DNA of 42,178 bases from NCBI GenBank assembly GCA_007126655.1, contig SLAV01000006.1:1-42178 (forward strand), in the 5' to 3' direction. This DNA is from Haloferula sp. Lineage in GTDB: Bacteria; Verrucomicrobiota; Verrucomicrobiia; Verrucomicrobiales; Akkermansiaceae. Below the pieces are notes generated by a model. It was given only the letters and a program-made list of their open reading frames with translations, was not told the origin of the DNA and did not search any database. The translations under genes were made by a program, and so were the position numbers. Below are positions 20,131 through 39,859 of the stretch, piece by piece. Within the stretch, counting starts at the first letter, position 1. The number at the start of each line of letters is the position of its first letter.

Positions 20131-20146
20131 GGCGTGGGTTTTTTGA

Positions 20147-23100
20147 TCAAATCTCATCGGCAGACAACCAGCGGAAGCCGATCATCTCGTAGCGTCTGCC
20201 GAAGCGCTGGTTGGCGGGCCGTGTGGGGGCAAGCCACGGTTCGTCGCCTGGATCGAGATATTCGGGGACGCGCTGGACCACGGCCTCGCACCACACCTTG
20301 ACCTTTCGCCCGTTTGATGGTCCGGCTTCGCCGTAGGCGCGGATGATGAAGGTATCGCCCCTGGCCCTGAGGATGGGGGCGATCGCGGTGAGGATGTCCG
20401 CCTGGGTGAGGATGCCGGGCGAACCGTCCGCCGTATTGCCGTTTTCCACGGCATTGGCGGGGTTGGTCGTGTCGCTGTTGATGCCGGACCGCTCGATCGC
20501 CGCCTGCAATGCGCCGGCCTGCGCGAGCGGACCGCTGCCCGGCCGCCGGTTGACGAACTCGGAAACCGATTGGAATGGGCCGCGTTCGCGGACTTCGACG
20601 ACGATTTCCTCGGCGAGGCGGCGCACCTGTTCGGGCGTGAGGCGCCGGTGCCCGTTCCATTTCGCGAGGTCGCGGGCGATCGGGGTCTCGGCATTTTCGA
20701 AGGAACCGCCATTACCGGGCAGGTGGCGGCTGAATGCGGCGTCATCCCCTGTGGAGGAACTGAAGCCGGACGCCTCAAGGAGCGGAACTTCGGCGCCAAG
20801 GGTGCTGTTCAGGATGGCCTCCCAGACATCGACGCGGGTGCAGTTCACATTGAATGGCGAGTCGATGAGGAGGTGGGCGGCGCTCTTCAGGTGACCGTCT
20901 GGCGCGGTAAGCTCAGCGGCAATCTCTTGCGCGCTTTTTCCGCGATGGTATGGAAGGAGGCGCGGGTTGGCCAGCGGGGTGCCATTGTCAAAAAAGTTCC
21001 GGACCGCGTTTTCGGGAGTGACGTTGCGGCCGAGCGGACCGCCGGGACTGCTGATGCCGGAGAAGAAATATCCGTCGAACAGGGCCGCGTTTGCGAGATA
21101 CGAGTGATCGAGGAGCGTCCTCTCGCCCGAGGTGGCGCGGACGGCGGAGGAATCGATAAGCGGCGGTGCGAAGGAGTTGGCGACGACTTGCGAAGTGAGG
21201 GGGAGCTGGCCTCCGGTGTTGAGAGGCGCGTGCCGGAGTTGCGCGAGGGACAGCGCCGGCGCGGTGGGGATGCCGCTGTGGGTCGCGAATTCCACCCCGG
21301 ATTGGGCGTAGATGCCGGAGCCTCCGTAGCCGCGGTTGTTGGTGTTGCTGATCTCGATCGTCGGACTGGATGGCGGCCAGTCGGTCATGACCTCCCACTG
21401 CAACTCATACTGGTGGTGTTGCCAGGGTTCCTGCTGGTCGAGGCCTGCCGAAGCGTAGAGGTTCACCGGAGAATTATCGAGCCAACCCCGCGAGGGGAAT
21501 TTCGAGTCCCTCTCCGTCTTCGCCTGGAATGTCGAGATCAGGAAGGGCTCCTTGAAGCGCACGACGGGCGGAGGATTCTGCCCTTGATAATCGTCGGCAT
21601 TGCGTCCGCGCGGGATCTGGTCGCTAACGACGAAGGCCGGCAGATCGTTGATGGAATAGGGTGGCAGGAACTCGGGCTCCTGGTCGCCATAATCAAGCTC
21701 GATGCCGCCGACGAGGGTCGGGTCCGATGGGTCGCCGATGTAGTATCTCAGAAAACCCGACACTTCCCTGCCGCCCGTCTCGGCGGGGGTGTCCACCGCG
21801 GCCCGCCCTTGTTGGACTTCCACCTGGATCACATCGCCGGGCTTGACCGCAATGGTGCGGACGGTCCTGCCGTAGTCCCTGCCGTTGCTGACACCGGTGG
21901 GCGACACGCAGAGGTTCAATGTGGAAACGCCGCCCACCCGCGGGTTGCTGGCGTTGCCGGCCGGCGGGTTGAAGCCCGGCCGCAGGTTGAGGCCCACGCT
22001 GGAAAACTCATTGTTGAAGGTCTTGACGTGGTTGAATGCGGTGAAAACAAGGTGCTCGCCAGGCGCCATGATGATTTCGCCCTGATTTTCTTCGGGAAGC
22101 AGGTTCAGCCGGTAGAAGGTATTGCTGCGGTTGGCGAATTGGTTTTCGAGGAAGGTGTTGGCGAGGTGGGTGAATTCCTCGTTGATCAGCGTGCCGTTCT
22201 TGTAGAACCGGAAACCGAGGGGCACGCGGTAAAGGTCGATCCTCCCGGATGGGAAGCGCAAGTTCACGTTGTAGGGGTTCCAAAGGGTGATGACCGGATC
22301 GATTACCAGCCAGGTGAGGTAGAAATCCTTGTCGGGGTGGTCGTCGGGCAGCGCCGCGTTGCCAGGCCTGGCGGAATCGGGCAGGGCCTGGTGCGAACCG
22401 AAGCTGACGCTGAAAACAAACTGCGCCTTGGCAATCACCGGGGTGATCTGTTGGTTGCTGAAGTAGGGGTGTTGGAGCAGTGCGTCGCCCGCAAGGCCGG
22501 GGGCGGGCCTGGCGATGGCATTCGTGGAAATGGTTGGCGCCTGCCCGCCGGCCAACTCGTTGTAGAGGCGGTAATGGGAGCGCAGGAGGCTCCAGGCGGG
22601 ATCGGGGCTGGGAAAGGGATTGGCGCCTTCGAAACGGTTTGGCGGCGGGGCGAGCGGCGTGTTGGCGCCGGAGTAAAGATGGCGATTCCGGTAATCGGAT
22701 GGCAGACCATCGGGGTCATCGAAGAGGCGCGAGAGATCCACGACCAGCCCGCCATCGGCCACATCGGCAATGACCCCGGCACTCCGCGACGTGAGATCAT
22801 GAAAGCCGCGATCCGCTGCGGCGAGGCCGGCCAGCACGGCCTGGTTGGTGCTGATGAGCTTGATGCGCTCATTGGCCAACTGTCCAAGCGGTTCCCAATC
22901 ACGCGCCGTGGCGGCATTGTATCCCGGAAGGGGCGCGGCGGCCATCTGCTCAAGTTCCTGCGAAAAGGAATTTGCCTCCACATCCGGCAGCGAAATCGGC
23001 AGCTTGGTGGATTGATCGAAAATGGCCCAGGCCATGCCGTTGTCACTTTGGCCGGTTGACCCCGGGACCGACACAATCTGTGCCTCCACCTGATCGCGGA

Positions 23101-23632
23101 AGGAAACATCCCGGCTACCGCGCACCAGGGTGACCACCTCGCCGGGCGGGCTTTGCCTTGCGAAACCGACGTTTTGGACGTCCTGCGGATCACGGCCGGA
23201 GACGAGCCAGCGGAGGAATCCGGATTCTTTCCTCGCGTCGAAATCCGGATTGCCGTCGCCATCCCATTTCCAGCCCTCCCAAACGCCGGTGAGGTGGGGT
23301 TGGGGGCCGTCCGCGCCGAGGATGTCCGCCGGTGCGGTGATGCGCTGGTCGGGGCCGGTGGCGCGTTGCAGTTCGCCGATCGCCACCATGAGCGCCAGGC
23401 GGGCGTTTTGCCTGGCTTCGTGAGTGAGTTGATCGGCGTAGGAAGTGCGGAGGGTAATGCTCGAAAGACCCAGCAAGCCCACCGCGACGATGACCAGCAG
23501 GACCATGACCGTCAGCGATGCGACCAGTGCGAAACCCGGAGGAAATGATGGTCGTGTGCCAAGGCGTGCCGGCTTTTTCATTGGAGATTCAATTGGATTC
23601 CGCATTTCACATCTTGTTGGCGCGTTTGCCAT
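20147..23632 (-). CDS. Verru_Chthon cassette protein A (large GspK-like pseudopilin), orphan copy
   Basis: 1161 residues if the ATG at 23632 is used; AAGG about 8 bases ahead supports it, but ATGs at 23605 and 23581 give a more usual short leader. The prepilin segment is PGFALVASLTVMVLLVIVAV, with Gly at -1 and Ala instead of Glu at +5, as in GspK. ADQLTHEARQNARLALMVAI after it is typical of protein A. Near the C-terminus, FNVNCTRVDVWEAIL (about 925) and AEEIVVEVRERGPFQSVSEF (about 1015) correspond to the GspK-like helix-hairpin-helix parts of the other A protein. No B, C or D gene is adjacent; it lies between two small E-type genes in a sulfatase operon. Confidence 0.86.
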   Translation of the reverse strand: MANAPTRCEMRNPIESPMKKPARLGTRPSFPPGFALVASLTVMVLLVIVAVGLLGLSSITLRTSYADQLTHEARQNARLALMVAIGELQRATGPDQRITAPADILGADGPQPHLTGVWEGWKWDGDGNPDFDARKESGFLRWLVSGRDPQDVQNVGFARQSPPGEVVTLVRGSRDVSFRDQVEAQIVSVPGSTGQSDNGMAWAIFDQSTKLPISLPDVEANSFSQELEQMAAAPLPGYNAATARDWEPLGQLANERIKLISTNQAVLAGLAAADRGFHDLTSRSAGVIADVADGGLVVDLSRLFDDPDGLPSDYRNRHLYSGANTPLAPPPNRFEGANPFPSPDPAWSLLRSHYRLYNELAGGQAPTISTNAIARPAPGLAGDALLQHPYFSNQQITPVIAKAQFVFSVSFGSHQALPDSARPGNAALPDDHPDKDFYLTWLVIDPVITLWNPYNVNLRFPSGRIDLYRVPLGFRFYKNGTLINEEFTHLANTFLENQFANRSNTFYRLNLLPEENQGEIIMAPGEHLVFTAFNHVKTFNNEFSSVGLNLRPGFNPPAGNASNPRVGGVSTLNLCVSPTGVSNGRDYGRTVRTIAVKPGDVIQVEVQQGRAAVDTPAETGGREVSGFLRYYIGDPSDPTLVGGIELDYGDQEPEFLPPYSINDLPAFVVSDQIPRGRNADDYQGQNPPPVVRFKEPFLISTFQAKTERDSKFPSRGWLDNSPVNLYASAGLDQQEPWQHHQYELQWEVMTDWPPSSPTIEISNTNNRGYGGSGIYAQSGVEFATHSGIPTAPALSLAQLRHAPLNTGGQLPLTSQVVANSFAPPLIDSSAVRATSGERTLLDHSYLANAALFDGYFFSGISSPGGPLGRNVTPENAVRNFFDNGTPLANPRLLPYHRGKSAQEIAAELTAPDGHLKSAAHLLIDSPFNVNCTRVDVWEAILNSTLGAEVPLLEASGFSSSTGDDAAFSRHLPGNGGSFENAETPIARDLAKWNGHRRLTPEQVRRLAEEIVVEVRERGPFQSVSEFVNRRPGSGPLAQAGALQAAIERSGINSDTTNPANAVENGNTADGSPGILTQADILTAIAPILRARGDTFIIRAYGEAGPSNGRKVKVWCEAVVQRVPEYLDPGDEPWLAPTRPANQRFGRRYEMIGFRWLSADEI

Positions 23633-23644
23633 TGGCCGGACCTT

Positions 23645-24418
23645 TTACCTTCCGGGGGTTTCCCTGAGCGGGACGCTGCGAATGTTCATGCGTTCGGAAC
23701 GGGCATCGCGCAGGATGCAGACCAGTGTGCGGCGGTCGTTGCGGGCGACCCAGGTCGAGCTGCTGATCAGGGTCCAATTGTCATCGATCTCGTATTTCAC
23801 CCGGATGCCGAAGGGGGTGCCGGCGGCGTTGGCGGGTTGGAAGTTATGGGAGCCGCCGCTTTGCATTTCGGTGACTTCCGCCTCATCCTTGTTGAAGCGG
23901 ACCGCATAGGGGGAAAGATTGACGAGTTGGAAGCTCGCGAGCGGAAACGCCCGGGTATCAGCGCTGATTGTGACAGCCTGGTAGGCCGTTGGGTCTTCCG
24001 GTCCGGAAGGATGCAGGATGACAAGCGGGTTCCCGATCGAACCGATGTCGGCCACGGCCGCGATGGTGTGCAGGCCGTCCGCCCCGGCGGGTCCGAAGAA
24101 AGTGATTCTCCCCTCTTCGACGGGTGGGGATGGCAACTCGATCACGTTGGCGAGGGACAGCGTCACGCTCCGGTATGTGTTTTCGTCGATTTCCAAATAG
24201 ACGGTTCTCACATTCCGGGAGTAGGCCGGGCAATAGAGGAGGACGGAAGAGGGCGATCCCGCATGGGCAAACTGAACTCCAAGAAACACCGCCACGGGAA
24301 AGTTGAGGAACATTCGCGCCAATGACGGCGGACGGCCACCTGTGGCAGATGTGTTTTTTGATGGGTTTGTGATTCTCATGATGTTGGGTTTGTCGGTGGA
24401 GTCATGCTGATTTGTCAT
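23645..24418 (-). CDS. Small secreted protein E' (upstream of orphan A)
   Basis: 257 residues if it starts at the ATG at 24418, which overlaps the sulfatase stop (ATGA, 24415-24418); an ATG at 24379 is an alternative. A signal peptide with core FLNFPVAVFLGVQFAHAG follows a polar tail. The C-terminal half (FPLASFQLVNLSPYAVRF, then RVKYEIDDNWTLISSSTW and NDRRTLVCILRDARSERMNI) aligns block for block with the protein at 19423-20130, so the two arose by duplication around the A gene. It ends 12 bases before A. Unknown function, probably exported together with A. Confidence 0.78.
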   Translation of the reverse strand: MTNQHDSTDKPNIMRITNPSKNTSATGGRPPSLARMFLNFPVAVFLGVQFAHAGSPSSVLLYCPAYSRNVRTVYLEIDENTYRSVTLSLANVIELPSPPVEEGRITFFGPAGADGLHTIAAVADIGSIGNPLVILHPSGPEDPTAYQAVTISADTRAFPLASFQLVNLSPYAVRFNKDEAEVTEMQSGGSHNFQPANAAGTPFGIRVKYEIDDNWTLISSSTWVARNDRRTLVCILRDARSERMNIRSVPLRETPGR

Positions 24419-27400
24419 GGCTCGGCCACTTTCAAACGCATGAAGCCGCGGTCTTCGATTGATTCGGGGGGAATCGCGGTGACCTGATCGAAGCCGGCGA
24501 GGTCCGGGTGCGGCACCGCGCTGTTGACGTGAAGCTCCGTCCACGATCCGACTTCCAGGGTGGTGGAGAACTCGACGACGTAGGCCGAGGCAGGCAGCCC
24601 GGATTGCCGGCGATTGAAGACGAAATCACCCCCGGGGGTCAAAAAGGGCGCGATCTCCCGGGACGGGACCGTCGGATTGCCGCCGAGCGCGAATTCCAGC
24701 AACGCATTGAAACCGTCGCCATTGGCATCGACCCGCCAATCGGCGGAACCGGGAAGATCATTGCCCGTGTGGCGGTAGTGCCAGGCGTTGGCGAGCGCAC
24801 GGTCGGGCGTGAGGGAGGCGAGCGCGGCGATTTCGGCGGCGGTGAGCGCACGGTTGTAAATGCGGACGTCGTCGATGACGCCGCGGAACTGGCGGCTGTC
24901 GTTCGAGGTCCAGTTGCCGATGTTGATGTCGTTGGCCGGGCTGGTGTTGATGGCGGTGCCACCGGAGCCTTCAGGGGAAATCTGCGGCGTGGCCGGCACA
25001 CCATCGATGTAGCCGAGGATTTGGGAAACCGTGGCGCCTTCCGGGATCACGATCGCGCAGTGGACCCAGCCCGCGCCGCGCAAGTCGGAACGCCCGGGTG
25101 TGGTGAAGTTCACGCCGCTGGCGTTGAATTCCCCGCGCAGCTGGTAATCGTCCGAGTGGTTCAGATTGATGTCGAACCGGTCGCCGGAGGTGGCGGTGCT
25201 GTTGTTGGCACCCCAGGAGAGGATGGTGGATCGCACACCGCCCTGGTCGGCATCGGCATGGATCCAGAAACTGACGGTGCGCGCGGCGGTGCCGGTGACG
25301 CCCGGGTTGCCGAAGAGGATGACCCGGTTCGCGCTGCCGTCGCCGGAAAAACGCAAGGCTCCATCAAGCCGGCCGGGCACCCAATCCGGGGTGGAGAAGC
25401 CAACCAGCGTGCCCAGCGGGCGGCCGAGCGCGTCGTGTGCGGTGGTGCCGGAGGTTTCGTCGAAGGGCAGCCAGATCGTCGATGTTTCCGGAATGACATC
25501 CACGCTGACGGTGGCGCTGTCCGTTCCCGTGCCATTCGAGAGGGTGTAGGTGAACGAGTCCGTCCCGGCGAATCCGGGATTCGAGGTGTAGGTCACGCTC
25601 GTGCCGCCGCTGGTGATGGCCGCGCTGCCCCTCATCGGCTGGGTGATGCTAATGATGGCGAGCGGATCGGGTCCGAATCCCGGGTCGTCGTTGGCAAGCA
25701 CGGCAATTTCGGTGGGCACGCCGGAAATGGCGGAAGTTTCATTGTCGTTGGCACCCGGCGGTGCGGGGGCCGGCTCGATTTCGAGAAAGAAATTCCCGAC
25801 CGGCACCGGCTGCTTCGCGATCCCCGGCCCCTGCCACTGCAGATCCAGCGAATGGCCGCCGGCATCGCCATGGCGGTAGTGGATGCGGATCGGGTGCAGT
25901 CCGGCTTCAAGCGGTATAGTGCCGGACGAGCGTTCGCCGCCGCCCGGATAGTCGAAATCGGCGTCGATGAGCTGCGCGTCGTGGATCCTCACAAATGCCC
26001 CGGTGTCCGTGGTCAGGAAAAAGATGTAGTTGCCGGAGACGGGAACCTGGAGCAATCCCTCGAAGGCGATGCCGATGTCCTCGTCGCGGGTGCGCACCGA
26101 AAGGTCGGGGCCGCTTGTTTTCCCATCGGCGACGGGTGTCTCCGTGGCGAAATCCGGCACCCAGGGGAAATCCCCTTCGTATGCGGCATACTCGAGACCG
26201 GGTTCCACGGAAGAGGGCACCTCGCCGCCGACGCTGGGTGCTTCCAGCGAGATGGAATTGAGCGCGATGTTGTTGCCACCGGTGGGAGCGGGCGAGCTGA
26301 CGGTGAGGGTGATGGTGTAGGTAGTGCCGCCTTCGAGCGTGGTGCCGGTAAAATCGATCGGCAGGGAAAGCGCGCCATTGCCGCCCGGATCGTCGCCGGT
26401 GGCATGAGCGGAGACATCGAGCGAACCGCCCTCGATATCGACATCCCAGCGTATGTTCTTGCTGTTGCCCTGGTGCCCGCCGCTGGCGTTGATGGCATAA
26501 CAGATGACTTCCACCACCGCCAGCTCACGGGTGGCCGCGGGGGTGAATTGGAAGCTGGTGCTCCAGGGGCCCACGGTCTCGACATTGCCTGCCACGGGGA
26601 TCGGCGCTCCCGGGGGATTGAGCGCGCCGCTGTTGATGCCGTAGCCGCTGATGAAGCCGGTGGCGCTGCCGGTGAATTCCAGGGTTGTGGTGGCGTTGTC
26701 CTGCTCGTCGAGATCCGACGTCCACGAAAATCCCGACGCGGTGGTGCCGGCTAGATCGCGTCCCCCGAAATCGGTGTGGAGAATGGTGAATGAGGATTCC
26801 TCAATGGGGATGACGGCCGGGATTCGCACCGAATCAAACACCCGGGAAACCCCGCCGCCCGCGCGGCGGATGCGGGCGGCACGCGCCTCGAAGTCCGCCT
26901 GGGTGGGAACCCCCGGCTGGCCGGCCAGGTTGTTGGTTTCCTGCGGATCGTTGGCGACATCATAGACGCGGAACGGCGTGCCGACCGAGTTGATGTTGTA
27001 TCGCACGCCTTTGAAGCCGTTGAGGAAGACCGCCTGCATCAGATTGCGGGTCGTTCCGCGATGTGACGGGTGGAAGTCGCCGTAATTCGGGGTGTTATTC
27101 TGCGCCCTGTTTCCGTTAGTGAGAAGCGTATCGTATTCCACATAAACCACTCCCGCGCGCTGGGTGCCGGTGCCGGTGAGGTCGGGAACAAGGGAAACGC
27201 CGTCGGAGCGGAACGGCAGCGGCAGACCGGCGACCTCGGCGAACGTGGGCAACCAGTCGTGAAACTGCGAGGGATGTGTGCTGACGCGCCCGGCGGGGAT
27301 GCCGCCTGGCCAGCGCGCCAGCGTCGGCACGCGGATGCCGCCTTCCCAAAGGTCGCGCTTGATGCCGTCGAGCGGCCCGTAGCTACGGAAGAAGCGCGGG

Positions 27401-28440
27401 TCCTGCGCACCGATGCTTCCGCCGCCGATTCCCTGCTCATTGTGCGGGCCGTTGTCGGAGGTGAAGATGACCAAGGTGTTGTCGTCGATGTCGAGGTCGG
27501 CGAGGAGTTGGAAAATGTCGGTCATGCCATCGTCGAGCCGCCGCATCATGGTGGCGTGGCGGCGCGCGGTGCTGGGCCATGCCACTTCCGGCGTCTCCGG
27601 ATCATTGTCATGGTCCCAGGTGGCCTCGGCGTAGTCGGGATGGATCCATGAGTCGATGGTGCCGTTGGCGGTGTTGATCATGTTGCCGGGCGTGCCGATC
27701 CATTGGACACCGCCGTTGAGCCCGAAACCCTCCGGATAGGGCCCGGTGGGCACATTGAGCCGGGCGTGCGGGGCGGCGTAGGCAAGGTAGATGAAGAAAG
27801 GCTCTTCCGGATTTTCATCCACGTGATCGACGATCCATTTTTTCGTCTTTGCGGTGGCAAGGTCGGTCGAATAGCATTTGTCCAGATCATCGGCGACGTT
27901 GGTGAAATTCTCGTAGTAAGGGCGTCCCTGCTCCTTTGGGTAATGGTGGTGGGCGTCACCATGACCCATGTATCCATGGAAATAATCGAATCCGCGGTTC
28001 AGTGGGTGGCCGGGGAATTCCGGCCCGCCCGGCAATCCCCATTTGCCGATCACGGCGGTCGCATAGCCGGCCTCTTTGAGCACGGTGGCCACCGTGTGGT
28101 TGTCCGCGATGGCCGCGGAGAACTGGTTGTCGCGCACGTTTGCATGCCCTTGGTGGACGCCCAGCAGGAAGGATGCACGTGCTGGCGCGCACACTGGCGC
28201 GGGGGTGTAATGGTGGTCCATCCGCACGCCCTGCGCCGCCATCGCATCGAGCCCCGGAGTCGAGAAGGCCGGAAGATTCCGGTTGTTGGCGAAATCGCGG
28301 GAATTCTGGAAATACACGCCGAGGTCGCCAAAACCGGTGTCGTCGGTGAGGACGAAGATGATGTTCGGGCGCGGGGCGTCGGCCATGGCGCTGGTCGCCA
28401 GGGTGGCGGCCGTAAGGGTTGCGGTGAGAGTGCGGATCAT
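24415..28440 (-). CDS. Large secreted sulfatase with PA14, Ig-like and LamG domains
   Basis: 1341 residues. Signal peptide 1-20; the sulfatase domain (about 22-520) has metal-binding Asp33-Asp34 (VLTDDTGFGDLG) and the formylglycine site Cys84 in CAPARAS, the C-x-P-x-R type that a sulfatase maturase must modify. It hydrolyses sulfate esters; substrate is unknown. A PA14-like domain follows (about 770-905), then an Ig/cadherin-like repeat with VLANDDPG, SFTYTLSNGTGTDSATV (about 915-1000). A LamG domain comes next (WLPFDETSGTTAHDALGR to GVIDDVRIYNRALTAAEIAA, about 1005-1220). The end is the DxNGDG..ALEFALG plus FMRLKVAEP module found on other proteins here. It is first in an operon with E', orphan A and E, and is probably displayed on the cell surface. 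Confidence 0.92.
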   Translation of the reverse strand: MIRTLTATLTAATLATSAMADAPRPNIIFVLTDDTGFGDLGVYFQNSRDFANNRNLPAFSTPGLDAMAAQGVRMDHHYTPAPVCAPARASFLLGVHQGHANVRDNQFSAAIADNHTVATVLKEAGYATAVIGKWGLPGGPEFPGHPLNRGFDYFHGYMGHGDAHHHYPKEQGRPYYENFTNVADDLDKCYSTDLATAKTKKWIVDHVDENPEEPFFIYLAYAAPHARLNVPTGPYPEGFGLNGGVQWIGTPGNMINTANGTIDSWIHPDYAEATWDHDNDPETPEVAWPSTARRHATMMRRLDDGMTDIFQLLADLDIDDNTLVIFTSDNGPHNEQGIGGGSIGAQDPRFFRSYGPLDGIKRDLWEGGIRVPTLARWPGGIPAGRVSTHPSQFHDWLPTFAEVAGLPLPFRSDGVSLVPDLTGTGTQRAGVVYVEYDTLLTNGNRAQNNTPNYGDFHPSHRGTTRNLMQAVFLNGFKGVRYNINSVGTPFRVYDVANDPQETNNLAGQPGVPTQADFEARAARIRRAGGGVSRVFDSVRIPAVIPIEESSFTILHTDFGGRDLAGTTASGFSWTSDLDEQDNATTTLEFTGSATGFISGYGINSGALNPPGAPIPVAGNVETVGPWSTSFQFTPAATRELAVVEVICYAINASGGHQGNSKNIRWDVDIEGGSLDVSAHATGDDPGGNGALSLPIDFTGTTLEGGTTYTITLTVSSPAPTGGNNIALNSISLEAPSVGGEVPSSVEPGLEYAAYEGDFPWVPDFATETPVADGKTSGPDLSVRTRDEDIGIAFEGLLQVPVSGNYIFFLTTDTGAFVRIHDAQLIDADFDYPGGGERSSGTIPLEAGLHPIRIHYRHGDAGGHSLDLQWQGPGIAKQPVPVGNFFLEIEPAPAPPGANDNETSAISGVPTEIAVLANDDPGFGPDPLAIISITQPMRGSAAITSGGTSVTYTSNPGFAGTDSFTYTLSNGTGTDSATVSVDVIPETSTIWLPFDETSGTTAHDALGRPLGTLVGFSTPDWVPGRLDGALRFSGDGSANRVILFGNPGVTGTAARTVSFWIHADADQGGVRSTILSWGANNSTATSGDRFDINLNHSDDYQLRGEFNASGVNFTTPGRSDLRGAGWVHCAIVIPEGATVSQILGYIDGVPATPQISPEGSGGTAINTSPANDINIGNWTSNDSRQFRGVIDDVRIYNRALTAAEIAALASLTPDRALANAWHYRHTGNDLPGSADWRVDANGDGFNALLEFALGGNPTVPSREIAPFLTPGGDFVFNRRQSGLPASAYVVEFSTTLEVGSWTELHVNSAVPHPDLAGFDQVTAIPPESIEDRGFMRLKVAEP

Positions 28441-28488: not shown

Positions 28489-28518
28489 ACCCGGTGGCGG
28501 AACCATCCGCCACCGGGT
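28489..28518 (-). terminator. Perfect 12-bp hairpin between the PEP-CTERM gene and the sulfatase gene
   Basis: ACCCGGTGGCGG (28489-28500) and CCGCCACCGGGT (28507-28518) are exact inverted copies with a 6-base loop. The hairpin lies 26 bases past the PEP-CTERM stop and 48 bases before the sulfatase ATG on the same strand. No strong T-tract follows, so it may end transcription, cap the 3' end of the upstream message or lower read-through into the sulfatase operon. Confidence 0.7.
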
Positions 28519-28543: not shown

Positions 28544-29449
28544 TCAGCGCCTGCGGCGAAGCAGCCCGAGAAGCCCGAGCGCGCCTAGCAAGGCGGCCGC
28601 GGGCTCGGGGATGGCGATGATGTTGTCGATGTAGGCACCCTTGAAATTGGAGCCGGAGTAAAACAGCTCGAAGCGGTCGATGGAGGCGACCCCGGCATCG
28701 CGGGCGCCGATCGGTTCGTTGAAGGTGTCCCAAGTGCCATTTCCATTCCAATCGATGGAAACCAACGCGCCACCGGGAGCAGCGACGGTGGTTTGGCCGA
28801 GCACATCGATGCGAACCCGACTCGGGTTCCCATCGGCCCAGTCCCATGTCTGATAGTTGTCAACCGCGGCATTTTGGAAGCCGACATCTGCCCGGGAACT
28901 GATGGAGAACTGGTCATTGGTCGTGGATAGCCACCGGAATTCCTTGTCATCGCCGCCCGCGCTTTGGTTGAAGATCAGCAAATAGGCCCGGCTGCCTCCC
29001 GCGGTGCCACCGGAGTCGGTGAGGGCAAGGCGGACCTGCCGACCGTTATCCGGCGCACCCTGGCGGGAGGCGAAAATGTCGAACTCGAACCTGAGTGTAT
29101 CGCCACTGGAGAGGTCCACCGTGGAAGTGAACAAACCCGTGGCACGGCGGTTGTCACCACCGGAAATTCCCTGGTCAAAGACAAAGGCGTTTTGGGTGTT
29201 GGAGGGGTTGCTCACGATGGCTCCGCGTGGATCCGAGAGGTTGCCTCCGGTGAACGCCCAGGAGCCCGCCTGGGTGCCGGCGTTCAGATTGGTAATGGTT
29301 GCATTGGGGACCAATCCGGTGGTGGCGTCGATCGCCGTCGAGTTATTGAAGTCAGCCTGGAAATAGACCACACCAGAGGCATGTGTTGAAAAAGCAAGGC
29401 TGGCGAGTAGTGCGGTGGCCGCGAGTGCGGGTTTTGTTTTTCGTTTCAT
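28544..29449 (-). CDS. PEP-CTERM sorting domain protein
   Basis: 301 residues. A basic start and hydrophobic signal peptide (MKRKTKPALAATALLASLAF) lead into a secreted domain of about 250 residues (QADFNNSTAIDATTGLVPNA to YSGSNFKGAYIDNIIA), then IPEPAAALLGALGLLGLLRRRR. The last is a textbook PEP-CTERM signal: Pro-Glu-Pro, a transmembrane helix and a poly-Arg end. An exosortase is expected to recognise and cut it during surface display; none is in the window. The gene is 25 bases after its tandem paralogue, which lacks this tail. The secreted domain is lectin-like in appearance but I cannot assign a ligand. Confidence 0.9.
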   Translation of the reverse strand: MKRKTKPALAATALLASLAFSTHASGVVYFQADFNNSTAIDATTGLVPNATITNLNAGTQAGSWAFTGGNLSDPRGAIVSNPSNTQNAFVFDQGISGGDNRRATGLFTSTVDLSSGDTLRFEFDIFASRQGAPDNGRQVRLALTDSGGTAGGSRAYLLIFNQSAGGDDKEFRWLSTTNDQFSISSRADVGFQNAAVDNYQTWDWADGNPSRVRIDVLGQTTVAAPGGALVSIDWNGNGTWDTFNEPIGARDAGVASIDRFELFYSGSNFKGAYIDNIIAIPEPAAALLGALGLLGLLRRRR

Positions 29450-29474
29450 ATGGTTGATTGGGTTTTATGTGAAA

Positions 29475-30728
29475 TCACTCGGCTCTGAGACGGGTGAAAA
29501 GTCTGCCTCCGGCTGGGGCGGGGATGGTTGCGGTAACGATGTCGAAGGCACCGGCATCGGTGATGGTGAAAATGCCCTCCGTGGCTGCGGGGACGCTGAC
29601 GGACGTCCAATCCGTGAGGTTTTCGCTGTATTCGAAGGCGAGGGACACATTCCCAATCGTGTTTTTGTCACGTTCGAAAGTGAACACGAAATCGTCTCCG
29701 ACGCGTTCGGCTTCGAACCCTTCATCGGACCGTCCAGGAACGAGAGGGTCGGTCCCGAACACCCATTCAAGGACGTTGGCGATGCCGTCGCCATCCTTGT
29801 CGTCGAAACGCCCGTCGTTGGGCGGGGTCAGGCCGACGCTGGTCGCCCATACCTCATAGGGGTCGTCATCCGCCAGGTCCGCGGTGGCAATGATATTGTC
29901 GAGGTAGGCCCCCTTTGGCGTGGATTCAAATCCGCTGTAGAACAACTCAAAGCGGTCGATGAGGGTCACACCGACATCGCGCCCGCCGATTGGAAAATCT
30001 TCCGTTTCCCAGGTGCCGTCGCCGTTCCAATCAATGGAGACCAGCGCGCGACCGGGAGTCGTGATGGTAGCCATGCCGAGCACGTCGATGCGCACGCGGA
30101 TTGGATTCCCGTCGGCCCAGTCCCATGTTTGGTAGTTGTCCACATCGGCATTCTGGAAGCCGACGCCTTCCTGGATGGAGATGGAGTTCTGATCATTGCC
30201 CGAAGACAGCCAGAGAAATTCCTTGTCCGCCCCCTGTGCGCTCATATTGAAAATCAGCAGGTAGGCCCGGCTGCCACCGGTGGTGCCCTCGGAGTCGGTC
30301 AGCGCAAGGCGGACCTGGCGGTTTCCCTCGGCGCCCTGCCGGGTGGGGAAGATGTCAAATTCGAACCTGAGGGTATCGCCATTGTCGATGTTCACCGGCT
30401 GGCTGAAAAGGCCTGTGGCACGGCGGGGCGTGGCGCCTGAAATACCATCGTCAAAGACAAAGGCATTTTCGGAGCGGTCCGGATTGCTGACGATGGCACC
30501 ACGGGGTATGGATGGATCGGCCGCACCGGTGAAAGCCCAGGAACCCACTGCGGTACCGGCGTTCAGATTGTCGAGATCCGCGTTGGCTACCAATCCGCTT
30601 TCTTCATCCACGGCGGTCGAGGCATTGAAGTCAGCTTGGAAAACGGTCTCACCGAAGGTATGAGCCGCAAAACCCAGGGAGGCGAGGAGTGCGGTGGTGG
30701 CGAGGACGGATTTTGTTTTTCGTCTCAT
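29475..30728 (-). CDS. Tandem paralogue of the PEP-CTERM protein with a different C-terminal module
   Basis: 417 residues from the ATG at 30728, which matches the MKRKTK start of its neighbour (MRRKTKSVLATTALLASLGF). The first 275 residues are clearly paralogous to the downstream gene, up to GAYLDNIIA. Similarity ends there. Instead of PEP-CTERM it has a region with an acidic DDKDGDGIANVLEWVFGTDP (calcium-binding-like DxDGDG), then a beta-strand region with FEYSENLTDWTSV and the terminus RLFTRLRAE. This module is also seen at the ends of the sulfatase, the beta-helix protein and the decayed gene. Probably secreted and held at the surface by another route. Confidence 0.85.
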   Translation of the reverse strand: MRRKTKSVLATTALLASLGFAAHTFGETVFQADFNASTAVDEESGLVANADLDNLNAGTAVGSWAFTGAADPSIPRGAIVSNPDRSENAFVFDDGISGATPRRATGLFSQPVNIDNGDTLRFEFDIFPTRQGAEGNRQVRLALTDSEGTTGGSRAYLLIFNMSAQGADKEFLWLSSGNDQNSISIQEGVGFQNADVDNYQTWDWADGNPIRVRIDVLGMATITTPGRALVSIDWNGDGTWETEDFPIGGRDVGVTLIDRFELFYSGFESTPKGAYLDNIIATADLADDDPYEVWATSVGLTPPNDGRFDDKDGDGIANVLEWVFGTDPLVPGRSDEGFEAERVGDDFVFTFERDKNTIGNVSLAFEYSENLTDWTSVSVPAATEGIFTITDAGAFDIVTATIPAPAGGRLFTRLRAE

Positions 30729-31475: not shown

Positions 31476-33086
31476 TCAGCGCGCGGCCAATCCAACGACT
31501 TGGGAGGGAAGCAGGGCTGTTTCGAAGACGCGTACATCATCCAGTGTGCCATGAAAATAAAAGAATGACTCGCGATTGTCCCAAGTCCCCAGGTAGCGGC
31601 CAAGGACAAGCGGTCTTGCAGATTCCGACGTGGTGTCCGTGGCGACGATTTGTTGACGGCGACCGCTGCTTTTCTCGAGGCGTCCATCGACGTAAATCCT
31701 GACGTGCGTTGAAACGTCGGTGTTTCTCCCGCCGAGGAAAACCACGGCGATATGGTGCCAGCGGCCGTTACGTAAATCCGTGGAGCCGATCAGGTAGCCG
31801 TTTCCGAGTTCGACACGCGGTGCCCCTACTGTTCCCTCGAAGCTTCGGGTATTCCATGAAATCTGCCACTTGCGCGATTGTTGGGGGCTGCCCCATGCAA
31901 GGATGCCGTTCGGGTTGCTCTGGTCGCCGGGCACGTCCGGGTCGAGCTTGATCCAGAACGAAACGGTCCGGGCGGAGGCGCCGCCGACGCCGGGATAGTT
32001 CGAAATGGCGGAGAGGCCGTCGCCGTCGAAAGCGAGGGCGTTGCCGAAGGGGCCGTCCACCAAAGTCGGCTCGGCGGTGCGTTCGTGACGGAAGATTTCG
32101 AGTTCATGGGGTCCTGTGAGGCTGTGAGACCGATTGCCGTCCCAGGACTCGAAGTTCCAATGGACTGCCGGGACCGGCTGCGTTGGTTCCGGTATTGGCA
32201 CTGAAAGAGTGGTCAGGTCGAATTCGATGGTCCTGATTTCCTGCGGGTAAAGCCGCACGGCTTCATTGGCACGCACCAGAAGCGGCTGGAACGAACCGCC
32301 GCCGGCTGGCATTGCCTCCACCAATCCATCGAGCACGTGGAGGTCCGTGGCTTCGTCATCAAGGACGCGCACCGAGAAGGTGGTTCCAAGATCACGCAGG
32401 AATGAGGACGGGGTGAGGATCTCGAACCCGTGGGCGGGTTCAGGCACCTTGGCGGTCAGTGATCCGGATAGCAATGTGGCCCGGATCTCGGACTCGACGC
32501 GCAGGGAAGCGGGGCCTTGGACTTTGACGATGGCGCCCGAGTCGAATGTGATGTCGATCGATCCATCCTGGCATTCGATCAGGCCGGTTTCGAGGCGCTG
32601 TCCGAGCGTGGCAGCAGTCCCCTCGAAGGTGGCGGTGTGCGTGTCCAGCCTGGTGATTTTCGCGGCTGAGACTGCGACGGACGGCCCGAAGTCCAGATCA
32701 TCGAAGGCAAAATCCGCCTCGAAGGCAAAATCCGCCATTGGCCCGTCTTGACCTGGATCCGCGCGGGAACCGGCTGCAAGCCACCATGCCGTGAGCGAAA
32801 CCAGCAATAGCGCCGCGATCCCGGCTCCGATGCGCCAGGCTCCGGAAGCATTGCCGTTTTGGCGCGCTCCCGTCCAATCCGGAAGGTCGACCGCCGGGAA
32901 CTCGGACACGATCATGGCCTCGGTCTCGATCAGAGCGAGGTAGCGGGCGCGGAATTCCGGGTCGTGTTTGAGGGCCTTCTGGATCAGGCGCAGATCGTCG
33001 TTGCCAGCGCTCCCGTCCAGGAGGGCTTTCAGCGCGTCTTCGAGGGGATCGTGGGGAGGGCACGCGGATGAATCGGTGCGTTTCAT
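31476..33086 (-). CDS. FecR-type sigma regulator fused to a LamG domain
   Basis: 536 residues. The cytoplasmic part (about 1-85) resembles the anti-sigma N-terminus of FecR-like proteins (DPLEDALKALLDGSAGNDDL, then EFRARYLALIETEAMI). One transmembrane helix covers about 86-106. The periplasmic FecR domain (about 170-260) includes FDSGAIVKVQGPASLRVESE and LHVLDGLVEA. The C-terminal LamG/concanavalin-like domain (about 305-530) runs from VHWNFESWDG to DDVRVFETALLPSQVVGL. It likely senses an extracellular ligand and controls the ECF sigma factor encoded 17 bases upstream. An 18-base tandem duplication falls after the TM segment. The LamG fusion is a variation known among planctomycetes and Verrucomicrobiota. 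Confidence 0.88.
   Translation of the reverse strand: MKRTDSSACPPHDPLEDALKALLDGSAGNDDLRLIQKALKHDPEFRARYLALIETEAMIVSEFPAVDLPDWTGARQNGNASGAWRIGAGIAALLLVSLTAWWLAAGSRADPGQDGPMADFAFEADFAFDDLDFGPSVAVSAAKITRLDTHTATFEGTAATLGQRLETGLIECQDGSIDITFDSGAIVKVQGPASLRVESEIRATLLSGSLTAKVPEPAHGFEILTPSSFLRDLGTTFSVRVLDDEATDLHVLDGLVEAMPAGGGSFQPLLVRANEAVRLYPQEIRTIEFDLTTLSVPIPEPTQPVPAVHWNFESWDGNRSHSLTGPHELEIFRHERTAEPTLVDGPFGNALAFDGDGLSAISNYPGVGGASARTVSFWIKLDPDVPGDQSNPNGILAWGSPQQSRKWQISWNTRSFEGTVGAPRVELGNGYLIGSTDLRNGRWHHIAVVFLGGRNTDVSTHVRIYVDGRLEKSSGRRQQIVATDTTSESARPLVLGRYLGTWDNRESFFYFHGTLDDVRVFETALLPSQVVGLAAR
32701..32736. repeat. Perfect 18-base tandem duplication inside the FecR-LamG gene
   Basis: The unit TCGAAGGCAAAATCCGCC occurs twice in a row, adding six residues to the reading frame and giving the protein segment ADFAFEADFAFDD. 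Being in frame it does not disrupt the gene. It is located in the linker just outside the membrane segment. Confidence 0.9.
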
Positions 33087-34578: not shown

Positions 34579-34664
34579 AGGCTGCCGGGACAATGTGGAT
34601 TCAGGTCGGAAGCCCGATTCCCATGACAGCCGGGACGGCGATCCTCCATTTTGAGACAGCCTCT
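34577..34664. repeat. Inverted repeat flanking the gap between convergent genes
   Basis: AGAGGCTG (34577-34584) and CAGCCTCT (34657-34664) are exact 8-base inverted copies with 72 bases between them, each touching a stop codon region of the convergent prepilin-like and beta-helix genes. The first arm overlaps the palindrome CCTCTAGAGG. It could form the base of a 3'-end structure; the distance is long, so this is weak. Confidence 0.3.
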
Positions 34665-37600
34665 CAGTTCTCCGTGGCCACCACGCGGACAAAGAACCTT
34701 GTCCCGGGGATTTCCGCGGGAATCCTGACGGTGACCGACTCGACCGGGTTCCCGCCGCTCGCGGATTTGCTGGCCGGTGTGAAATCCGTCCAGTCGGTGA
34801 GATCGTCCGACCACTGGTAGGTGTAGTCGATGCCGGTCAGCGATTGCAGGCGACGGGTGTAGCTGAAAAGCCCGGTGGCGGGATCGGGCAGCGAAGTAAT
34901 CGGCGTGACCGAGGCTCCGCTGGTGGGATCGAGCCCCCAGATGCGTTCCTCGTTGTTGGTGAGTCCGTCGCCGTCGAAGTCGGCATCCGGGTCGGAGAGA
35001 TCGGCATCGGGGAATCCGGCGGCCCAGAGCGCGTAGTCGTCGGCGGGCAGCGTGGTAAGGATGAGCGTGCCCGAGGTTCCGTTGTCGGTCAGTTCGAGGT
35101 ATCTCTCGTCGATGGCGTGGGATGGCCCGAGGCCGGATGCCGTCGTGCCGTCGATCTTGAAAAACCCGCTGCTTGCCTTGCCCTCCAGGTAGGACGTCAG
35201 GTTTCCGCCGGTGAAGTTGTCCAGCTCGATGGTGCCGCCGGGATGGGTGAAGTCGAAACCACCGCCATTGAGGCCGTTGGTGGCGCGCAGCGGATCGGCC
35301 TGCGCGCCCGAGACTCGCAGCGTGCCGCCGTCGATCACGATGCTGGAGCCGGTGCCGCTGCTCCGGTAGTTTGTGTTGAAGAAATTCGACGCTTGCACCA
35401 GCCCACCTGAACGGACCGTCAATGTGGCACCGTTGTTCATGCGGAAGCCATTGCCGGCCTGGTGGTTGTAAAGCAACGAACCGTTCACAACTTCGAGCGA
35501 CGACGCGATCAACGTGAGGGACGCTGTATTGGCGATGAATGTCCCGTCGTTGATGAGCAAGGAAGAACCGTTGACGAGGTCGAAGTGGTAGGAGCTGGTC
35601 GGGTTGAGGCGGAAATGCGCGCCGAAGTTCAAGGTCATCGAGGCGCCGTTGTCGAATGTAAGGCCGTTGTTTCTCTGGATTCCGCCGGCCAGGATGGTGG
35701 CATGGTTTCCGGCCGCCATGTCCGGCGGTGACGGGCGCGCCCAATGGGTTGGCAGGTTGTTGCTGCCCGGTTGGTTCCAAAAAACCGGTGCCGCCTCGCT
35801 GCCCGCCCCGCCCCAGATCAAGGATGGAAGGGAAAACATTTCGTCACGCACCTCGTCGAGCGCGACGAGGTCGAGTGCGGCATCAAAGACCCGGACGTCG
35901 TCAAGCAGGCCGGACCAGGCCAAGGACTCGGCGGGAGTGCCGACCCCGAGGCCGATCTCGTCGCGCGGAGGGTCGCCCGTCGCCCGGGTGTTGATCAACC
36001 GGTTTCCCGTGCTCGTTGGGTTCACCAGCGCGCCGTTGATGTAGAATTTGACGGAGTTGACGTTGTCACCCTCATCGATGACCACCCCCACCATGTGCCA
36101 CTCGCCGTCGTTGAGTGCGAGATTGTCATAACGGGCGAACCCGCTGGAGACTTCGAAGCGCAGCTTGCCGCCATCGTGGAGGCCGAGCCGCAGGTTCTCA
36201 CCCGGACCGCCACCTCCATGTGGCGACCATCCGAAAAACATGCCGTAGAAGTCCTCCGTGGTGTTGATCCAGGCGGTGATCGTCTTGGCGCCCGAGCCAT
36301 CGATTCCGAGATCCCGGGCGTCCAGATTGGTGCCGACATAGCCCACGTTGCTCCCCGGAAAGTCCAGCGAGGCGGTGGAGCCGATTCCCGCGGTGTCGGT
36401 GGACCACGCAATACCGGTGCCGAAGTCATCCGAGATGGTTCCGGTGGTGGCCGTGGTGGTGGTGCCGCCGCCCTCCTCGAATGGCCAGCGGGCCACGCCG
36501 TCGGGCCTGGGCGGGGCCACCGTGATGGTCACCTGTGCGCTGTTGGACAGGTCGCCATCCACGGCGGAGATTTCAAAGACGTATGCGCCGTTCTCCAGCA
36601 GGTCCACGCTGGTGTCCGGGGAGGCCGGGTCGGCAATGGAGGCGGGCGGGCCGCCCAGTTGCGTCCATTGATAGCTGATCGGGCCGCTGCCGTAGGTGTA
36701 GCCCGAGGCGACGAGTGGAACATTGGCTGTGGGAGGAATGAACGCGCCATCACTCACAAACAGCACAATACCCTGCGCACGCCGGGCGAGCTGGTCGAGG
36801 TAGAGCGATTGTGGCTCCATGGCGGCACCCATGCCGACGCCTTCGACGTGATCGGGCGGGGCGGTGCCGCCACCGGTTGGAATCGACACGGACGAGCGGG
36901 ATCCGCTGGTGCCGATGACGTATCCATAGCGGGCTTGCTCACTGCGGACGAGAGACCCGAGTTCACCGCGGTTTCCACTGCCACTGGTATTCCAATACAC
37001 GCCGTGCGCCGAGGTGAGCGCGTGAGGCGTGGTTCCGCCGAAGAATTGGCGATGGTGTGCGGTGAAGTAGCTGTTGTGGGCATGGCACATGTCGAACAAG
37101 TTCGAGTGGCTGAAATGCTGGTGGTGATCGCTGCCTTCACCGTTGGTGGTGTAACCAAACATGCTGGAACCGGTCGAGCGTTTGGTTTCGATGTCTTCAC
37201 AGCGGAGGAAAACATTGCCGGAGCTGCCGGCATGGGAGATGACGAATCCATGACGGGAGAAGTCCGCAATGCTGTCCATGATCAGGTTTTCATTGCTGTC
37301 CTGGATGCGGAACATGTAGCCATTGCCGCCGCCACCACCGTATTGTGAGCGGCGCATTCCGCAGTTTGCCACCGTGATGCGGAAGGAGCGAATCAATCGA
37401 ATGCCATTGGATAGCATGTGACTTGTTGAGGCGTTTCCGGGTGGTTGGTAGCTGTGCACATTGGTGATCCATGAATCGAAAGTTTGGCTCACATTGATCA
37501 ACCTGCTGTTATTCACGTCCCAGGCGGAGCTTCCCTCAACCGACCAATCCTCTTCTCCCCATTGGTTTCCGGGATGCTGCACGTTGCCGATGGAAAAATC

Positions 37601-38437
37601 CTCCAACCCGATGCCGCTGAGCTGGCCGTTCACCTTCCGCACCCGGGCGTCGTCGCGGGTTCTCATGGTGTATCGGGTGGGAATGTCGATTTCGATCCAG
37701 CCTTCAACCGGGTTGCTCGCGGTGATTTCCCTGTGGTAGGTGGCGCGATTGGGAGCATTTCCCACGCTCCACCAATTGCCTTGGTTGTGCTCGTCGATCC
37801 AGCCTTGGGTGAACGCCCATTCCAGGCGCACGATATCACCGACTTGGAATGCGGAGGCATTCGCAACCGGGATGCGGCGGGTCGGGTTGTCGAGATCGGT
37901 GGTAATGGCCACTTCAGGTCCAAAGGTTGCGGCAGGCTGCGGGGCGACGCGGACTACCTCCTTGTTACGCATTTGAAACGAAGTATTGAGGATGAAGGTC
38001 TCCCCCACTCCGGCTCCGCGCAGGACGATGTCCGAGTGCTGGATCCAGAGGGCGAAATTGCTATTGCCCTGAGGCTCGACGCGGTATGTGCCTGCCGGGA
38101 GAAACACCACGCCGCCACCCTCTGCGGTCGCCGCATCGATCGCCGCCTGGATCGCAATGGTGCTGTCGTTGGTGCCGGTGGGGTCCGCATTGTAGGGCGC
38201 GGTGGTCACATCAAACGCCGGCCCCGCGATTTGCGGAATTGGTTCCTCGCCACGCCGATATCCCGCGTAGGAGAAATCCTGGATCAATTTGTCGGTGGTG
38301 AAAGACGCGTCATCCGGTGGTGTCCAGTCCACGGGGTAGAGCGATGGCCGCCATGCATGTGACGAAAGCAGGCCGGCACAATTGATTGCGAGCAGGGTGA
38401 GAAGGAATGAGTGGGTTTTCGAATGATTCGGATACAT
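34664..38437 (-). CDS. Pectate-lyase-superfamily beta-helix protein with Ig-like, LamG and C-terminal module
   Basis: 1257 residues. After a signal peptide (1-28), FDVTTAPYNADPTGTNDSTI and GGGVVFLPAGTYRVEP (about 75-125) match the opening of the pectate lyase 3 family, which folds as a right-handed parallel beta-helix and acts on polysaccharides; the helix probably runs to about residue 590. An Ig/PKD-like segment follows (ISYQWTQLGGPPASI, about 610-680), then a LamG domain (WPFEEGGGTTTTATTGTISD to LDDVRVFDAALDLVAL, about 690-890). Repetitive serine/asparagine-rich strands, like autotransporter-type repeats, come next. The end has DPDADFDGDGLTNNEERIWG, a Trp-rich YQWSDDLTDWTDF and RFFVRVVATEN. 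It may be a lyase or an adhesin; catalytic residues could not be identified. Confidence 0.86.
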   Translation of the reverse strand: MYPNHSKTHSFLLTLLAINCAGLLSSHAWRPSLYPVDWTPPDDASFTTDKLIQDFSYAGYRRGEEPIPQIAGPAFDVTTAPYNADPTGTNDSTIAIQAAIDAATAEGGGVVFLPAGTYRVEPQGNSNFALWIQHSDIVLRGAGVGETFILNTSFQMRNKEVVRVAPQPAATFGPEVAITTDLDNPTRRIPVANASAFQVGDIVRLEWAFTQGWIDEHNQGNWWSVGNAPNRATYHREITASNPVEGWIEIDIPTRYTMRTRDDARVRKVNGQLSGIGLEDFSIGNVQHPGNQWGEEDWSVEGSSAWDVNNSRLINVSQTFDSWITNVHSYQPPGNASTSHMLSNGIRLIRSFRITVANCGMRRSQYGGGGGNGYMFRIQDSNENLIMDSIADFSRHGFVISHAGSSGNVFLRCEDIETKRSTGSSMFGYTTNGEGSDHHQHFSHSNLFDMCHAHNSYFTAHHRQFFGGTTPHALTSAHGVYWNTSGSGNRGELGSLVRSEQARYGYVIGTSGSRSSVSIPTGGGTAPPDHVEGVGMGAAMEPQSLYLDQLARRAQGIVLFVSDGAFIPPTANVPLVASGYTYGSGPISYQWTQLGGPPASIADPASPDTSVDLLENGAYVFEISAVDGDLSNSAQVTITVAPPRPDGVARWPFEEGGGTTTTATTGTISDDFGTGIAWSTDTAGIGSTASLDFPGSNVGYVGTNLDARDLGIDGSGAKTITAWINTTEDFYGMFFGWSPHGGGGPGENLRLGLHDGGKLRFEVSSGFARYDNLALNDGEWHMVGVVIDEGDNVNSVKFYINGALVNPTSTGNRLINTRATGDPPRDEIGLGVGTPAESLAWSGLLDDVRVFDAALDLVALDEVRDEMFSLPSLIWGGAGSEAAPVFWNQPGSNNLPTHWARPSPPDMAAGNHATILAGGIQRNNGLTFDNGASMTLNFGAHFRLNPTSSYHFDLVNGSSLLINDGTFIANTASLTLIASSLEVVNGSLLYNHQAGNGFRMNNGATLTVRSGGLVQASNFFNTNYRSSGTGSSIVIDGGTLRVSGAQADPLRATNGLNGGGFDFTHPGGTIELDNFTGGNLTSYLEGKASSGFFKIDGTTASGLGPSHAIDERYLELTDNGTSGTLILTTLPADDYALWAAGFPDADLSDPDADFDGDGLTNNEERIWGLDPTSGASVTPITSLPDPATGLFSYTRRLQSLTGIDYTYQWSDDLTDWTDFTPASKSASGGNPVESVTVRIPAEIPGTRFFVRVVATEN

Positions 38438-38599: not shown

Positions 38600-39859
38600 G
38601 TGACGAAACTCCACGAACTGGCGCACCGAAGCAAAACCCCCATCCCCTGTCCCCGGGCAACCCCGGTTTCCACGCCGCAGGACCGGATGGCGTCCATCAC
38701 CCCCGATGGCGAATTCCCGGCTGGCGATAATCAGAAGCCGGGCGCAACCCACAGGTTTGCCAAAATCCTGTCGGTGGCGATCGGATCGATCCTCTGCCTC
38801 CACACGGCCCAGGCGCACGGTGCCGATGGCCCGGGATCCGATCCTGCCGATCAGGCCGTCGAAAACACGTTCGTGCCCAACGGCATGGAATTTGACGGCA
38901 ATGTGCACATCGAGATGGATCCCCCGGTAACCACCGATGTGTTCACCGTCGAGATGTGGGTCAAGCTGCCGGAAGCGGGCTAAGACGATGACGGCACGAT
39001 GATCACCCCGCTCACCAACACCGGAAGCTTCAACAGCCATATCCTCGTCTGGACACGGGATGGCAGGGCGGTCGCGGAGATACGCGACGGAGGAGGCACG
39101 GGGGGGCGTCTCTTCTCGGACTCATTCATCAACGACGGAGAATGGCATCACCTCGCGGTGGTTTTTCGTGACGAACCGATCCAGACCCCTGGCGAAGATG
39201 ACGGCATCATCATTTTCATCAACGGAGAGGAGGACGCGAGGACCGCGCACAGCGACAGCTTTCCCACATCCAATCCGGGCGCGGCGATGGCACGCCGCGA
39301 GCGCAACGATCCCAGCCACTATTTCGAGGGCACTCTGAGCGAGGTTCATGTCTGGGACCGTGCTCTGGATGAAGCGGAAATCCAGGAAAGCATGGAGTTC
39401 GAGCCGGCATCCATCGTTTCCGCCGGGAGGAAGTGATCAGCGCGTTCATGGTGGAAAACGAGATCGACAACGTGATCATGATCGCGGGCGACGCACACAT
39501 GCTCGGCGCGGGCGACGGGGTGTCGAACTTGTTCAAATACGCGTTCGGACTCGATCCAAAGACACCCGCCCGGCAAAGCGATTATCCCATGAAGGAGTTT
39601 ACGCCCGATGACAGCCGCTTCCGCATGCAATTCGATGCTCGGCAGGACCCCCGGGACATCGAATATGTGGCCGAAATCTCCCATGACCTCGATGAATGGA
39701 ACCCGGCGGACGTCGTTGAAGTGTAAGCGGGAGCCTTCCCACGAAACTCCGGGATTCGACCGGGTGAGCCTGGAGTCAGCGCCCATGGATAACGAGACCG
39801 AGCGTGCCTTCATGCGCATCCGAATCAATGAAACCACGCCGCCCGCCCCCGCCGACTAG
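38600..39859 (+). pseudogene. Decayed gene: LamG domain plus PhoD-like fragment and C-terminal module
   Basis: One reading frame from 38600 encodes a signal-like segment and the start of a LamG domain (NGMEFDGNVHIEMDPPVTTD). It stops at an in-frame TAA at 38981-38983 and then continues in the same frame with DGEWHHLAVVFRDEP and SEVHVWDRALDEAEIQES. At about 39421 it switches frame to NVIMIAGDAHMLGAGDG, a motif resembling the end of PhoD/phosphodiesterase-type domains. The start of the shared C-terminal module (GVSNLFKYAFGLDP) then follows directly, so most of a catalytic domain is missing. Another frame change at about 39722 leads into RAFMRIRINE. Nonsense codon, internal deletion and frameshift together indicate a pseudogene. 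Frame errors in the sequence could explain part of this. Confidence 0.75.

Follow-up and report, generated by a model that had tools for sequence, protein, structure and literature searches.

A folded C-terminal module that alternates with PEP-CTERM on related exported proteins of Verrucomicrobiota

Why do two neighbouring and clearly related genes encode proteins that end in different C-terminal tails? This question is raised by a contig of Haloferula sp. (GCA_007126655.1, SLAV01000006.1), the 42,178 nt of which constitute the window analyzed here, in a genome (G000) of 4.1 Mb. Two paralogues, P0001 (29475-30728; 417 aa, an exported-type protein identified by its ORF, translation, and alignment) and P0002 (28544-29449; 301 aa), lie in tandem on the minus strand with a gap of 25 bp. 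P0002 carries a PEP-CTERM tail, while P0001 ends in an unnamed module. The way in which Verrucomicrobiota place polysaccharide-degrading enzymes outside their cells is poorly known; in Bacteroidota, the type IX secretion system (T9SS) is the usual answer. In some genomes, exported proteins that terminate in the module number in the tens, and it provides a concrete and testable handle on enzyme placement.

P0001 starts with a putative signal peptide at about residues 1-26 (MRRKTKSVLATTALLASLGFAAHTFG; 30651-30728, minus strand), as judged from its composition and not by SignalP. Alignment and profile search place the body domain at about residues 28-281 (29886-30647), and a search locates its counterpart in P0002 at 28613-29371, both on the minus strand. 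The two bodies are 69% identical in the joint alignment and 71-73% by blastp/search, the DNA identity is 72% across 853 bp, and the similarity ends where the tails start. This outcome confirms the claim of an earlier note on this DNA that the bodies match up to GAY(I/L)DNIIA and then part, P0002 toward PEP-CTERM and P0001 toward the module. To say that the pair "differs only" in its tail is nevertheless too strong, as the bodies are unlike at ~28% of positions. Beyond the split P0002 runs on as IPEPAAALLGALGLLGLLRRRR, that is, a PEP motif followed by a hydrophobic helix and a basic cluster, and this sorting signal (28547-28615, minus strand) matches PF07589 with 22.9 bits, above the cut-off (18.2 bits by hmmscan). 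P0001 instead has ~132 residues with DDKDGDGIANVLEWVFGTDP, the last of which are GGRLFTRLRAE; Pfam and NCBIfam gave no PEP-CTERM match at this C-terminus. Profile, alignment, and predicted fold delimit the module to residues 286-417 (29478-29873, minus strand). Directly 3′ of P0002 is a 13-pair hairpin (28489-28518, minus strand; -29.8 kcal/mol, z -4.0) lacking a T run. No canonical terminator was found at this site, and the hairpin may mark the end of a joint P0001-P0002 transcript, if the two genes share one. Bodies of the P0001/P0002 type also occur in three other genomes, in proteins of 1594-1744 aa that always end in the module; on the basis of these four genomes, the module may be older than PEP-CTERM as the tail of this body family.

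What kind of domain is the module? It comprises ~130 residues, with a DxDGDGxxNxxE loop followed by a predicted FN3/Ig-like beta sandwich ending FxRLxV (AlphaFold2 and alignment). In P0001 the loop, DKDGDGIANVLE (29766-29801), is calcium-loop-like (TSP3_bac/EF-like) in the alignment, and the predicted sandwich extends over 29481-29717 with RLFTRLRA as its last strand (both minus strand). The AlphaFold2 model of the module (pLDDT 90, pTM 0.78) has two helices around the loop and then seven strands. In the model of full-length P0001 the body is poor (mean pLDDT 61) and the module is good again, with a confident domain from about residue 290, a few residues past the point where the paralogues part. 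Together, these models predict an independently folding domain. In an alignment of 71 members (A4), W9, W89, F126, R128, and N33 are near-invariant, and these residues look structural. The fold-search neighbours are FN3/Ig-like and all borderline. They include FN3 domains (VIA Z 8.3, reached with a cytokine-receptor domain, on which 76 residues superpose with an rmsd of 2.2) and the starch/glycogen-binding CBM21 (VIA Z 5.9, Foldseek E 2e-3); the best Foldseek E is 2e-3. No solved structure shows a convincing sequence relationship.

The module has no model in Pfam or NCBIfam, and the P0001 tail matches none of their families. The DxDGDGxxNxxE loop is shared with TSP3_bac (PF18884), which gives a weak match there in 7 of the 71 members (best E 3e-5) and none in P0001. 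Unlike TSP3_bac, which forms repeat arrays, the module has just one such unit, a degenerate one that is joined to a beta sandwich, and most members are unmatched. The Amuc_1099 family was rejected as a relative since its match covers the loop half only. By the measure of Pfam, NCBIfam, and the literature searched, the module is an undescribed domain. A swappable C-terminal tail as such is a known kind of thing: the choice-of-anchor domains of NCBIfam are body families with differing C-terminal anchoring tails. The bodies of P0001/P0002, and of the pair L105/L130 discussed below, behave alike. However, the choice-of-anchor models match neither P0001 nor P0002, and one of the alternative tails is here an undescribed domain.

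The module is not peculiar to the P0001/P0002 pair. Two more window proteins, both on the minus strand and assigned by Pfam and search, end in it: a sulfatase with PA14, Big_9, and LamG domains (24415-28440; module 24421-24786) and a pectate-lyase-like protein with LamG (34664-38437; module 34670-35047). A profile built from the same genome, which delimits these two copies, finds the window copies at E 1e-26 to 1e-37, and the P0001 module alone retrieves some 30 relatives at E < 1e-3, so chance is excluded for the window copies. In the 4.1 Mb, profile searches and retrieved stretches yield 67 matches at E ≤ 0.01, some of them to the calcium loop only, and about 48 ORFs with a substantial module copy. 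A decayed carrier is also present in the window on the plus strand (38903-39732), where a LamG domain (38903-39385) and a module fragment (39508-39732) are interrupted by in-frame TAA stops.

A module that was mostly internal, or present on cytoplasmic proteins, would have spoken against the idea of the earlier note that it acts in surface retention or export, and this was not what was found. In its own genome the module is terminal in 42 of 48 ORFs (at most 28 residues from module to ORF end), while 6 continue. Elsewhere, the best copy is terminal in all of 29 other genomes, as are 21/21 further copies. A GTDB scan returned 80 named loci, in which 91 of 93 ORFs reach their stop 0-10 residues past the module (mode 1); its query was a three-sequence alignment with the pattern in the calcium loop, which misses loop-less tails such as the one in G349 (see below). 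As a control, LamG is terminal in only 6/18 cases in the same genome (Fisher 4e-5 versus the module). Signal peptides are called on 20/21 carriers, on 47/50 under a lax rule, and on 39/54 under a strict rule compared with 74/234 background ORFs, where the rules are home-made and not SignalP. The bodies vary widely and include sulfatase, pectate lyase, GH18, PATR repeats, and LamG. A sorting tail is expected to sit at the very C-terminal end of exported proteins, on many unrelated ones within a single genome, and the module shows this pattern. On these counts the module occurs across the phylum and, with few exceptions, as the C-terminal domain of proteins with predicted export.

The exceptions are informative with respect to the end motif. 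Among the internal copies, three are followed by a ~170-residue jelly-roll-like domain and the others by beta-helix or BNR-like domains (all named by eye). All six retain F-x-R-(L/I/V/M), so the motif belongs to a strand of the structure and is not a signal that depends on a free end; recognition cannot require a free C-terminus in those copies. The three copies before the jelly-roll-like domain belong to paralogues (L149, L151, and L152 on contigs C300, C303, and C266), of which L149 and L152 end GVY(L/I)D(N/D)V while the end of L151 is outside view. L228 and L234 of G272 resemble this architecture, and the jelly-roll-like domain is possibly a further type of terminal domain. PATR (passenger-associated-transport repeats) are known from autotransporters; in PATR-bearing module proteins such as L149 the repeats occur with the module, or with PEP-CTERM in related bodies, and not with an autotransporter barrel.

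Does the swap recur? The earlier note had proposed a search for the same exchange in other Verrucomicrobiota, and a genome-wide comparison of PEP-CTERM bodies with module bodies did reveal swaps beyond P0001/P0002. L105 (PEP-CTERM) and L130 (module), in the same genome, are 74% identical over 264 aa and part at DEIRMGTS(F/Y)xAV(T/V)P. When the L105 body was searched across the class, it turned up with PEP-CTERM in G329 and with the module in G276 and G272. This search also revealed, in G349 of another genus, a tandem pair (L229/L235; contig C41, about 118-120 kb) that is 57% identical over 300 aa. One of these proteins ends in PEP-CTERM and the other in the beta-sandwich half alone, without the calcium loop, which suggests that the sandwich is the essential half of the module. 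The clean swap pairs are thus three, in two genera. Three further cases are embedded ones. L143/L112 (76% over 360 aa) and L144/L106 (72% over 243 aa) are each neighbours on one contig, C214 and C222, respectively, and the module of the latter pair is internal; the third case is L148/L119 (59% over 195 aa). By a crude estimate to which tandem duplicates contribute, 4 of 40 PEP-CTERM genes have a module gene no more than 600 bp away, compared with 0.6 expected. The repeated exchange of PEP-CTERM and module on related proteins suggests that the module may also place proteins at the cell surface.

With a broader profile the module is found in 71/145 Verrucomicrobiota genomes, and the GTDB loci are nearly all from Verrucomicrobiota or the PVC group, apart from one Oligoflexales MAG. 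An exosortase is present in 69 of the 71 module genomes versus 34 of the 74 others (p 7e-13, kinship ignored), and the Haloferula genome has 3 matches to PF09721 (exosortase). The two exceptions are G071, where the module match is marginal, and G113, which gave no PF09721 match at E 1e-5 and nothing in 220 kb searched by tblastn with a sister exosortase. We do not count G113 as proof of independence from exosortase because it appears to match Akkermansia muciniphila ATCC BAA-835, a strain credited with EpsH (Amuc_1470) and 21 PEP-CTERM proteins (PMC3048395). The gap would reflect either a divergent exosortase or the search itself. The module proteins of G113 combine sulfatase, PA14, and BACON domains and LamG, GH18, and BACON domains (loci L347, 809-5230, plus strand, and L348, 789-4619, minus strand). 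By domain content they fit Amuc_0953 and Amuc_2164, in which BACON is reported at the C-terminus (van Passel et al. 2011, PMC3048395). If this identification holds, the same two proteins bear the module as a separate domain after BACON, a domain that the consulted portion of PMC3048395 does not mention, and the module sits on two known mucin-directed enzymes of A. muciniphila.

Taken together, we favour the reading that the module, as a folded C-terminal domain, serves to target and retain exported Verrucomicrobiota proteins and is able to replace PEP-CTERM, and we put the probability of this reading at roughly 0.45. The carrier would leave by Sec via its N-terminal signal peptide. The calcium-loop-like segment would connect it rigidly to the body, and the terminal sandwich, of predicted fold, would fold in the periplasm. 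A putative partner would then hold the carrier at, or hand it to, the outer surface or the exopolysaccharide, and any recognition would be of the folded domain. By sequence, small single-domain bodies mostly have PEP-CTERM and large multidomain enzymes mostly the module, and tail exchange of the kind seen in the swap pairs has moved bodies between the two.

The PEP-CTERM/exosortase (EpsH) system is the closest parallel, as both tails are found on many unrelated signal-peptide proteins, with shared bodies and in the same genomes. In contrast, PEP-CTERM has about 24 residues with a PEP motif, a transmembrane helix, and a basic cluster, whereas the module is a ~130-residue fold without these elements. 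For PEP-CTERM, too, the sorting role was deduced from evidence of this type (Haft et al. 2006, PMC1569441). The suggestion that the second tail does the same job as PEP-CTERM is consistent with the recurring swaps, the terminal position, and the signal peptides of the carriers. Equivalence as such is plausible, and so is the idea that the module retains proteins at the surface or exports them by a different route, with a close rival in binding to glycan or matrix. Several points count against targeting, i.e., the lack of a partner machinery among the profiles run (see below), the six internal copies, the loop-less tail in G349, and an exosortase association blind to kinship. Moreover, there is little support for the localization of PEP-CTERM proteins in Verrucomicrobiota; in the work of Ottman et al. 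(PMC4960237), the intracellular fraction contained more PEP-CTERM protein than the outer-membrane one.

A more specific version would make the module a second class of folded sorting domain with machinery of its own for outer-membrane or matrix attachment, tied to exosortase genomes and interchangeable with PEP-CTERM. We regard this version as doubtful. No partner machinery was identified among the exosortase, SprA_N, and Verru_Chthon_A profiles. A Verru_Chthon cassette, which adjoins these genes in the window, was considered as a partner and rejected: it is scattered and is absent from a module-bearing genus (g2).

The main rival to targeting and retention sees in the module an end domain that binds glycan, exopolysaccharide, or matrix, or associates with itself, and would in this way retain its carrier by affinity without a sorting step. 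Its C-terminal place would then be a matter of architecture, as with many binding domains that are appended to other proteins. This explanation may fit nearly as well, and we consider it quite possible. CBM21 and FN3 are among the borderline fold neighbours, many carriers are polysaccharide-active, the A. muciniphila copies come after BACON, and internal copies occur. Presence in genomes that have exosortase, and hence are EPS-associated, would likewise suit matrix binding. On the other hand, the module is far more strictly terminal than LamG of the same genome, and it is also found on small bodies without a recognizable enzyme, such as P0001. Nor was a conserved carbohydrate-binding site identified in the alignment, the conserved residues of which look structural.

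Ordinary domain shuffling offers another explanation, in which tails were traded since both are common and the module has no role in localization, being for example a stabilizing end cap. Encounters are indeed likely with about 43 PEP-CTERM and about 48 module ORFs in 4.1 Mb, and PATR and LamG bodies are widely shared. The split by size, in which PEP-CTERM proteins are small and module proteins mostly large, agrees with it as well. Yet the exchange is exactly C-terminal in the three clean pairs from two genera, and no protein among the GTDB loci has both tails on one ORF. We hold shuffling alone to be improbable.

In Bacteroidota, the type IX secretion C-terminal domain is a folded beta sandwich that forms the very end of exported proteins, which are often active on polysaccharides, and the module shares this position. 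The idea that Verrucomicrobiota have their own version of this domain in the module, serving a diverged T9SS, follows a like logic for Sec-exported proteins and is hardly credible. In Pfam and NCBIfam, neither Por_Secre_tail nor any other model of a T9SS tail is among the matches of the 71 members, even at E ≤ 1; SprA_N is found in 0/145 genomes (a search in which no positive control gave a match); and the module differs in its calcium-loop-like front half and its tolerance of internal placement. No T9SS tail structure is present in the fold-search lists, which excludes nothing.

The window contains further genes that deserve mention. Two large pseudopilin-like proteins are encoded at 20147-23632 (minus strand) and 15145-18588 (plus strand), the former with a weak Verru_Chthon_A/GspK match at its N-terminus. 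It is adjoined by genes for two small proteins that resemble each other and have no Pfam match (19423-20157 and 23645-24544, both minus strand). At 31476-33086 (minus strand), a FecR domain is fused to a terminal LamG without an export tail.
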